Assembly (NCBI GenBank): GCA_025923995.1
Contig: JAICEW010000006.1
Location: 1 to 48,780, forward strand
Reading direction: 5' to 3'
DNA from: Vicinamibacteria bacterium
Lineage (GTDB): Bacteria > Acidobacteriota > Vicinamibacteria > Fen-336
Length of the DNA: 48,780 nt
Position numbers and translations under genes: made by a program. The first letter of the stretch is position 1. Every line of letters starts with the position of its first letter. Under the pieces are notes generated by a model. That model was not told where the DNA came from and ran no database searches. It saw only the letters and a list, made by a program, of their open reading frames with translations. Below are positions 43,049 to 44,722 of the stretch, in pieces.

Positions 43049-43779
43049 CTCGCCGCTCCTCTCACTTGGTCCTCGACGACGGCGTCCGGCCGTGGTCTCG
43101 AATGGATGCCGCACTCGCTCTTGCCCTGCCCGCGCCAGCGGCCGGCGCGCTCGTCCTCGCCCGGCGCCACGCGGCTGGTGCAGGGAACGCACCCCACGCT
43201 GGGATAGCCGTGCGCGTGCAGCGTATTGACCGGCACGCCGTGCGTGGTGAGGTGGTCCCACACGCGGGCGCGCGGCCAGTGCGCCAGCGGGTTGATCTTC
43301 ACGAGCCCGTGGACGGGATCGCTCTCCAGCACGCGCGTCTGCGCGCGCGAGGGGGTCTGCTCGCGGCGGATCGCGCTGATCCAGGCCGCGTGCCCGTCGA
43401 GCGCGCGGGCCAGCGGCTCCACCTTGCGCAGGTGGCAGCAGCGGTCGGGGGCGCGCTCCCACAGGAGCTCCCCGTGCGCGGCCGCCTGCTCCTCGACGGT
43501 CTGACGGGGGCGGACCGCGCGGATCGTCCGTCCGTAGCGCAGCTCCAGGCGCCGCCAGAGCGTGCGCGTCTCGGGGAAGAGGAGCCCCGTGTCGAGCGTG
43601 AAGACGTCCACGTCCAGCTCGAGCCGCGCGATCAGGTCGAACAGGACGCAGCCCTCGGGGCCGAAGCCGAACGCGAACGCGAGGCGGGGCGCGAAGCGCT
43701 CCGCCGCCCAGGCCAGGACGTCGGCGGCGTCCGCCGACTCCAGCCGACCGTACTCGGATTGCCTCTCCGCCACGTCCAC
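43045..43779 (-). CDS. cysH: APS/PAPS reductase CysH, iron-sulfur type
   Basis: The 244-residue enzyme reduces activated sulfate to sulfite. The PP-loop-like start is [17 protein letters not shown]. Cluster Cys pairs are present: CC in [11 protein letters not shown] and CxxC in [10 protein letters not shown]. The catalytic Cys sits in ECGIHS near the C-terminus. The four-Cys set indicates APS reductase (PAPS reductases lack it). Start is uncertain between GTG 43779, GTG 43773 and an ATG at 43827; the first fits an upstream GGAGG. It is the first structural gene after a terminator-containing leader. Confidence 0.92.
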
Positions 43780-43825: not shown

Positions 43826-43865
43826 AAAAAGCGAAAGGCCCGGGGCTTGAAGCCACCGGGCCTTT
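43826..43865 (-). terminator. Intrinsic terminator in the cysH leader (attenuator)
   Basis: Read leftward, AAAGGCCCGG (43865-43856) pairs with CCGGGCCTTT (43843-43834), a 10-bp stem extended inside by GGCT/AGCC. It runs into CGC and five T's (43830-43826). It lies between a poly-Cys upstream frame and cysH, so it would stop transcription before the operon unless it is prevented. GGCCCGG also occurs in the upstream frame at 43942-43936, a duplicate of the left arm. Confidence 0.78.
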
Positions 43866-43887
43866 GATCCGCTCGTCAGCGCGTGTT

Positions 43888-43980
43888 CTAGGGCGAGAGC
43901 ATGCGGGGCGCAGCGGGGCGGGCGCCGGGGCCTCTCCGGGCCATCCGACAACAACACATGCTCATGCGCCGCGCGTCCAT
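43888..43980 (-). CDS. Poly-cysteine leader peptide of the sulfate-assimilation operon
   Basis: A 30-codon frame ATG-GAC-GCG... at 43980 contains three successive Cys codons TGT-TGT-TGT (43956-43948) and ends at TAG 43888, 22 nt before the terminator at 43865. The peptide reads [16 protein letters not shown] and then a Pro/Arg-rich tail. The ATG at 43980 lies 7 nt after a TAAATC -10 box, so the mRNA could start on it (leaderless); ATGs at 43965 and 43959 are in the same frame. Cys is rare, so three in a row in a short frame before a cysteine operon suggests a sensor of charged Cys-tRNA. Leaderless poly-Cys frames with this task are known from mycobacteria. Translation here is inferred. Confidence 0.72.
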
Positions 43981-43987
43981 ACCGTCA

Positions 43988-44016
43988 GATTTACGCCGCG
44001 ACCGCCGATCCGTCAA
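43988..44016 (-). promoter_or_regulatory. Promoter of the cysteine leader and sulfate operon
   Basis: TTGACG (44016-44011), spacer 17 nt, TAAATC (43993-43988). Seven nucleotides separate the -10 from ATG 43980. It lies directly after the response-regulator stop at 44030. Confidence 0.62.
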
Positions 44017-44029
44017 CCCCGAACATGCG

Positions 44030-44722
44030 TCATAGGGTGAGGCGATAGCCCGCGCCGCGCACGGTCTCGAGGTGCCTCGGGAACCGCGGGTTCACTTCGA
44101 TGTACCGGCGCAGGCGCACGATGAAGTTGTCGACCGCGCGCGTCTCGGTGTCCGGCGAGAGGTTCCAGACCTTCTCCAGGATCTCGCCCTTGCCCACCAC
44201 GCGGCCCTGGTTCTGGACCAGCAGCTTGAGCAGCGTCGCTTCCAGGACCGTCAGCCGGAACGTCTCGCCGCGCGCCCGCACCTCGAAGCTCGCGAAGTCC
44301 ACCTCGGCGTCCCCGATCCGCACCGTCTGCGGGTCGCCCTCGCCCCGCGTCCAGTCGCGCCGGCGCAGCAGGCCCTTGACGCGCGCCAGCAGCACGGGCA
44401 GGTCGAATGGCTTCGCCAGATAGTCGTCCGCTCCCACCGTGAGCCCCTGCACCACGTCCTCGGGCAGGCTCTTGGCGGTCAGCATGAGCAGCGGGGTGTA
44501 GTTGCCCGCCTCGCGCATGCGCTGGGCCAGGGAGATGCCGTCGAGGCCGGGCAGCATCACGTCCAGCACGACCAGCTCGTGCGCGGGCGGGGCGATCAGG
44601 ATGTCGAGGGCGCGCAGGCCGTCGTCCACCACCTGCACCTCGTAGCCCTCCAGGCCGAGGTTGAACTCGATGCCCTTCGCCAGGTTGGCCTCGTCCTCCA
44701 CCAGCAGCACGCGCGCGCCCAT
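44030..44722 (-). CDS. OmpR-family response regulator
   Basis: The 230-residue protein has a receiver (VLLVEDEANLAKGIEFNLGL, VVLDVMLPGLDG with phosphoacceptor Asp, LTAKSLPEDVV, DDYLAKPFD) and a winged-helix domain (LTVLEATLLKLLVQNQGRVV, RAVDNFIVRLRRYIEVNPR, VRGAGYRLTL). Its ATG overlaps the stop of the kinase gene by 1 bp. The last gene of the ALDH/kinase/regulator operon, it ends only 14 bp before the cysteine promoter. Targets unknown. Confidence 0.95.
   Translation of the reverse strand: MGARVLLVEDEANLAKGIEFNLGLEGYEVQVVDDGLRALDILIAPPAHELVVLDVMLPGLDGISLAQRMREAGNYTPLLMLTAKSLPEDVVQGLTVGADDYLAKPFDLPVLLARVKGLLRRRDWTRGEGDPQTVRIGDAEVDFASFEVRARGETFRLTVLEATLLKLLVQNQGRVVGKGEILEKVWNLSPDTETRAVDNFIVRLRRYIEVNPRFPRHLETVRGAGYRLTL

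Follow-up and report, generated by a model that had tools for sequence, protein, structure and literature searches.

Cysteine leaders and attenuators described to date

In the attenuators of the trp, his, leu and ilv operons, a leader frame with regulatory codons is combined with four RNA segments (1 to 4), of which 2 and 3 form the antiterminator (2:3) and 3 and 4 form the terminator (3:4). Polycysteine-encoding leaderless short ORFs were reportedly described in mycobacteria by Canestrari et al. in 2020. That work is cited, for the mycobacterial polycysteine short ORFs, in PMC13236596 and PMC9094748. The Cys leader peptides of mycobacteria were first predicted without a conserved terminator hairpin (PMC1262725), and the control exerted by the poly-Cys leaders is described as translational in M. 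smegmatis (PMC13236596). In the Rhodobacterales, uORFC-8-2 is a predicted transcription attenuator that contains tandem Cys codons and a terminator with a U run (PMC8632094). As for the Acidobacteria, almost none of the attenuators predicted in them has an assigned function (PMC2965389).

This work deals with a leader located upstream of a sulfate assimilation operon in a stretch of 48,780 nucleotides from a Vicinamibacteria bacterium (Acidobacteriota; contig JAICEW010000006.1), hereafter called the window, and with its counterparts in the class Vicinamibacteria. The leader shares with those of mycobacteria a run of Cys codons, a very short and, as predicted, leaderless frame, its association with sulfur or cysteine operons and the presence of several independent leaders per genome. 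However, the mycobacterial Cys codons are near the stop codon, whereas here 30-66 nt of frame follow them, and three mutually exclusive pairings and a conserved intrinsic terminator are present, unlike in the mycobacterial leaders. Predicted ribosome-mediated attenuation, tandem Cys codons and a terminator with a U run are also features of uORFC-8-2. That element concerns only cysS, has two Cys codons inside the first stem and no leaderless start described, and belongs to Alphaproteobacteria (PMC8632094); in the leaders reported here the Cys codons precede the stem, and the downstream genes are cysH, cysD, siroheme or TauE genes, among others. With the trp, his, leu and ilv attenuators there are in common a short leader frame in which codons for the pathway's end product follow one another, a segment 1 beside these codons, and exclusive 1:2, 2:3 and 3:4 pairings as computed. 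The differences are that cysteine is the amino acid predicted to be sensed, that translation is probably leaderless, that the genes concerned are those of sulfate assimilation, siroheme synthesis and transporters, and that the hosts are Acidobacteriota.

The comparison of sequences supports the attenuation leader with Cys codons that had been proposed from the letters of the window alone. We regard it, with a probability of roughly 0.87, as a classical trp-type ribosome-mediated transcription attenuator that senses charged tRNA-Cys and is part of a class-wide cysteine regulon. Neither the window nor 16 related loci gave any Rfam match (T-box, SAM or other cis-regulators) at the gathering thresholds, and seven leader peptides had no NCBIfam match up to an E value of 10, which is a weak test for peptides so short. 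Among the papers matched in a literature search, none describes a leaderless Cys-leader attenuator of an Acidobacteriota class.

Promoter, leader frame and cysteine codons

The elements of the promoter and leader are given below in 5' to 3' order.

44016-44011, minus strand: -35 box TTGACG, read from the sequence; TTGAC is kept in most relatives
43993-43988, minus strand: -10 box TAAATC, after a 17-nt spacer, read from the sequence
43980-43888, minus strand: leader frame, ATG at 43980, 30 codons and TAG (43890-43888), from the sequence
43956-43948, minus strand: predicted sensor, three consecutive Cys codons (TGT-TGT-TGT), from the sequence, kept in relatives
43942-43939, minus strand: segment 1, GGCC (extended to GGCCCGG, 43942-43936), directly 3' of the Cys codons, from the sequence; 1:2 covaries in relatives
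43932-43921, minus strand: segment 2, GGCCCCGGCGCC, whose partner is segment 1 (via 43932-43929) or segment 3 (antiterminator), from RNAfold and the 2:3 z-score
43916-43908, minus strand: segment 2', CCGCT-GCGC, inner part of the antiterminator, from the fold and complementarity
43882-43869, minus strand: segment 3', GCGC...AGCGG, inner part of the antiterminator, from the fold and complementarity
43865-43851, minus strand: segment 3, AAAGGCCCGGTGGCT, the 5' arm of the terminator, from RNAfold; 3:4 covariation
43847-43826, minus strand: segment 4, TTTCGCTTTTT, the 3' arm of the terminator and an interrupted U-tract, from RNAfold and the sequence

The promoter (TTGACG-N17-TAAATC, with the ATG 7 nt past the -10 box) and the 30-codon frame with its three TGT codons and TAG are present as the sequence-only reading had described them and can be read directly. 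The -10 box is weak and absent from the list of a consensus promoter scanner; the relatives have better ones at the equivalent place, for example TACAAC, TATCTT or TATAAA. A response-regulator gene located upstream ends at 44030, 13 bases ahead of the -35 box. All three Cys codons of the leader are TGT, versus TGC for the 20 Cys residues encoded in eight genes of the window. Across the 105 leaders analysed, TGT is used 300 times and TGC 84 times, the window genes using TGC only.

Among the 79 leaders with a convincing promoter, an ATG or GTG located 6-10 nt past the -10 box shares the frame of the Cys codons 66 times and lies in another frame in no case. This bias places the start codon no more than a few bases away from the expected transcription start, and the leader is probably translated in a leaderless way, as predicted from promoter spacing.

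Terminator and pairing segments of the window leader

A hairpin followed by five T had been noticed downstream of the frame and is indeed present, although its stem, taken to be of 10 bp, is stronger than that: in the RNAfold prediction it has 14 bp and a single bulged U (43865-43851, loop UCA, 43847-43834). The stem is followed by CGC and then by TTTTT (43830-43826), so that the U-tract is interrupted. Between 36500 and 44700 neither strand has another terminator-like site; as 1.4 such sites would be expected by chance, the evidence for the terminator comes from its conservation. A second GC-rich hairpin (43824-43804) lies just 5' of the cysH Shine-Dalgarno, and one is also found past the U-tract in the leaders L002 and L005.

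When segment 4 is left out, RNAfold folds the window leader as the 2:3 antiterminator, in which GGCCCCGG.GCC (43932-43921) faces GGCCCGG.GGCT (43862-43851) around an inner stem CCGCT/AGCGG. The CCGCT of segment 2' pairs with 43873-43869 according to RNAfold, and its GCGC with 43882-43879 by complementarity; segment 3' is the positional counterpart of a conserved CGCGAAnGACC of the relatives. The z-score of 2:3 in this leader is -2.43, and its 1:2 hairpin has only 4 bp.

The GGCCCGG at 43942-43936, reported earlier as a duplicate of the terminator 5' arm, is real, and it resembles this arm because segments 1 and 3 share a partner. From the comparison of sequences it is segment 1 of a predicted 1:2/2:3/3:4 attenuator, of which segment 2 had gone unnoticed. 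A ribosome halted at the last Cys codon would cover it, as had been pointed out. That coverage was then seen as a difficulty for the switching path, and on this point the earlier interpretation is amended, since covering segment 1 is what would free segment 2.

The downstream operon

Seven co-directional genes follow the leader:

43779-43045, minus strand: cysH, (phospho)adenylylsulfate reductase (PF01507, E 2e-43)
43048-41291, minus strand: sat-cysC fusion, ATP sulfurylase and APS kinase (PF01747, PF01583)
41300-40716, minus strand: siroheme synthase, dehydrogenase part, CysG N-terminal type (PF13241, PF14824)
40725-39955, minus strand: uroporphyrinogen methyltransferase, CobA/SUMT (PF00590)
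39968-38136, minus strand: sulfite/nitrite reductase (PF01077, PF03460)
38117-37512, minus strand: NUDIX hydrolase (PF00293)
37515-36721, minus strand: thiD, with a 4-base overlap with the NUDIX gene (PF08543)

The start codon of cysH is a GTG at 43779, preceded by AGGAGGGGAG, and its stop overlaps the ATG of sat-cysC (43048) in the sequence ATGA. Most neighbouring genes of the operon overlap slightly. These overlaps, together with the lack of any further terminator-like site, bear out the proposal that the seven genes form one operon.

Distribution of the leader in the family and the class

The comparison of close relatives, which had been suggested as a check and for which relatives were located with cysH as bait, favours the leader: it is kept in all four genomes of the family that have a cysH 59-67% identical (MAQRLMCCCCTVAREVPGADSG, MRGACCCRARVAPGHG, MCCCCQAPGAPG and MCCCCTVAREAPG), with 3-4 consecutive Cys codons, the short frame and the terminator. 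In G011, a genome of the same family with a cysH 49% identical, no leader was found. Outside this family, leaders containing 3-6 Cys codons occur ahead of cysH or of other genes nearby.

A covariance model (R1), built from 29 leaders with the Cys codons included, matches strongly across most families of the class. When 80 of its matches were read individually, two proved false. To test the Cys codons without the circularity that their inclusion in R1 entails, a second model (R2) was derived solely from the sequence 3' of the Cys run. At least two adjacent in-frame Cys codons lie right upstream of 23 of the 26 non-seed R2 matches read in the class, a set that includes L179, L203 and L210, whereas by our estimate TGYTGY would occur by chance in about 2% of 30-nt stretches of such composition. 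Several matches were rejected: L231 and L244 in the class as false positives, the R2 class matches L319, L326 and L330 as ends of ordinary genes, and R1 matches elsewhere in the genome of the window (C3 and C425, for example), which has one leader, for having no Cys codons.

By our own count of R1 and R2 matches, about 95 of the 193 genomes of the class Vicinamibacteria contain at least one leader, the kinship among genomes inflating this and every other comparative count. In the analysed set of 105 leaders the order of the parts is constant ahead of differing genes. The number of Cys codons per leader ranges from 2 to 6 among the relatives, and in L183, L190, L193 and L201 the run is interrupted (C-x-C) while the remaining element is kept. 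On these comparative grounds, the arrangement is not due to chance.

Most matches in the rest of the phylum were rejected as the ends of ordinary genes with terminators; the only plausible leaders among the matches there are L262 (G321) and L264 (G503). The locus had been put forward as an independent case outside Actinobacteria. Its position outside that group stands, as it belongs to Acidobacteriota; it is not an isolated case, being one of more than 100 class-wide leaders, and Cys-attenuator candidates exist elsewhere. Related to this, a plain codon scan of cysH loci, independent of R1 and R2, gave two further loci. In Roseithermus sacchariphilus (Rhodothermota; L059, CP030158.1, about 2055-2310) sulfite reductase is preceded by a terminator and by a frame rich in Cys codons, QVCCMCLCDGMCMCCCDAYASAC, and the locus could be an independent Cys attenuator. 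In a Chloroflexi MAG (L063, 4730-4950) a CCCMCC frame precedes cysH and is flanked on both sides by near-identical terminator hairpins. Both may be independent of the class element.

Support for the competing pairings

In a model-fitted alignment (A2), helix 1:2 shows changes on both sides at all five pairs and helix 3:4 at 8 of 11. The covariation score is 0.335 versus 0.168 in shuffled alignments, none of 500 shuffles being as high, and it is roughly halved or lower when the partner is shifted by one column. A plain MAFFT alignment (A3) agrees with A2 on the covariation of 1:2 and 3:4, again with none of 500 shuffles reaching the score. Depending on the family, segments 1 and 2 read GGCCC/GGGCC, GGACC/GGTCC or GGCTC/GAGCC. 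Over all leaders the stability of 1:2 is barely above that of shuffled sequence (mean z -0.29), and the support for this helix is therefore its covariation.

The 2:3 duplex, compared with dinucleotide-shuffled versions of segment 2, has a mean z of -3.21, and 96% of the leaders are below -1. Segment 2 pairs better with its own arm 3 (-35.9 kcal/mol) than with those of other leaders (-29.7 kcal/mol; Wilcoxon p 6e-15), and in L010, 12 bases of segment 2 have their exact reverse complement in segment 3. The 3:4 terminator has a median predicted energy of -25.9 kcal/mol in the 105 leaders. The consensus obtained with RNAalifold on alignment A1 was of no help and was set aside: it pairs segment 1 with segment 4, because segment 1 resembles 3 and segment 2 resembles 4.

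Ribosome positions were simulated by masking in equilibrium partition-function folding. For the window leader the antiterminator probability is 0.71 in all three states (stalled ribosome, no ribosome, ribosome at the stop codon). That of the terminator in the full leader rises from 0.28 without a ribosome to 0.66 when one is stalled, contrary to what is expected of an attenuator. Over all leaders the antiterminator reaches 0.80 with a stalled ribosome versus 0.63 with the ribosome at the stop, a small difference in the expected direction.

Proposed mechanism and alternative explanations

The mRNA would start at or next to the start codon of the leader, and the ribosome would load on its very 5' end. 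With ample Cys-tRNA, it would pass the Cys codons and run to the stop; segment 2 would be paired with segment 1 or covered, the 3:4 terminator would form and transcription would end before cysH. When Cys-tRNA is scarce, the ribosome would stall on the three Cys codons and cover segment 1, so that segment 2 could pair with segment 3 once this is made. The terminator would thereby be blocked, and RNA polymerase would enter cysH, sat-cysC, the siroheme genes and those of sulfite reductase, NUDIX hydrolase and ThiD. Given that about half of the sampled genomes of the class have the same switch ahead of sulfur genes, ribosome stalling is probably used by these bacteria to turn on sulfur assimilation at cysteine shortage.

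A different use of the stalled ribosome is suggested by the closest known leaderless poly-Cys leaders, which act on translation (PMC13236596, M. smegmatis): it would open a structure hiding the cysH ribosome-binding site, and the hairpin would be no working terminator. The GC-rich hairpin at 43824-43804 adjoins the cysH Shine-Dalgarno, and similar ones follow the U-tract in some family members, in agreement with such translational attenuation. However, this extra hairpin is not conserved with the rest of the element across the class, and both the distance from leader to gene and the start region of the gene vary widely. Furthermore, the relatives have a GC stem followed directly by a U-tract, often of 7-9 U, which would be useless for hiding a ribosome-binding site. 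Control of translation thus seems improbable.

The transcription attenuator is likewise preferred over the view that the Cys-rich peptide is itself the product or the sensor, binding metal or responding to redox state like the copper-responsive leader peptides. Consecutive Cys residues can bind metal, and redox genes (peroxiredoxin, TlpA-like) follow a few of the leaders, but most downstream genes belong to sulfur assimilation, leaders have anywhere between 2 and 6 Cys with some runs interrupted, and the peptide past the Cys run is not conserved whereas the RNA is conserved across differing frames. In 72 leaders, for instance, a GGTC stretch located past segment 2 occurs in the three phases relative to the Cys codons (37, 29 and 6), and it is thus conserved as RNA and not as peptide. 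A role of the peptide is hence very improbable. Lower still is the likelihood of a chance frame lying over the terminator of the response-regulator gene: read-through from that gene, which ends at 44030, would meet the terminator, but 105 leaders show the same order of parts before different genes, their helices covary, and the leader uses TGT where the window genes use TGC.

Genes preceded by the leaders

Downstream ORFs were clustered using codon-position GC. The genes found right after the leaders encode the siroheme synthase dehydrogenase or CobA (about 33), CysD (about 20; these have a PAPS-reductase domain and are CysD-like by sequence), CysH (17), TauE/SafE (about 15), YeiH (PF03601; 4) and cysteine synthase (4), and more rarely TlpA-like proteins (3), a peroxiredoxin, a porin and an ATP-grasp protein (1 each). 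Nearly all of them are involved in sulfur assimilation or sulfur transport. The predicted cysteine regulon is composed of independent leaders, of which up to three were verified per genome: L192, L225 and L234 in G140, L182, L233 and L243 in G123, and L205, L228 and L242 in G049.

The leaders L224, L238, L242, L223, L206 and L226 are located upstream of genes for TlpA-like thioredoxin-domain proteins, a 1-Cys peroxiredoxin, a porin and a RimK-like ATP-grasp protein, which are candidate new members of the cysteine regulon. TauE/SafE or YeiH (PF03601) genes follow L197, L213, L217, L199, L212, L225, L243, L013, L015 and L033, among others. If TauE/SafE and YeiH are indeed induced by cysteine shortage, this would suggest a role in uptake or sulfite handling and not in mere export.

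Biological implications

It is about an even bet that dispersed leaderless Cys-codon attenuators, several per genome in many members, putatively run the cysteine and sulfate assimilation of the class, with no need of a dedicated sulfur regulator protein. A function is now proposed for attenuators of Acidobacteriota, along with covariance models and more than 100 examples. The proposed element unites the terminator/antiterminator switch of classical attenuators with a leaderless poly-Cys leader like that of mycobacteria, two features hitherto reported separately. If the mechanism holds, leaderless initiation would be coupled to RNA polymerase closely enough for transcription attenuation, and siroheme synthesis, sulfite reductase and TauE/YeiH-type transporters would be under one cysteine signal in abundant, poorly cultured bacteria.
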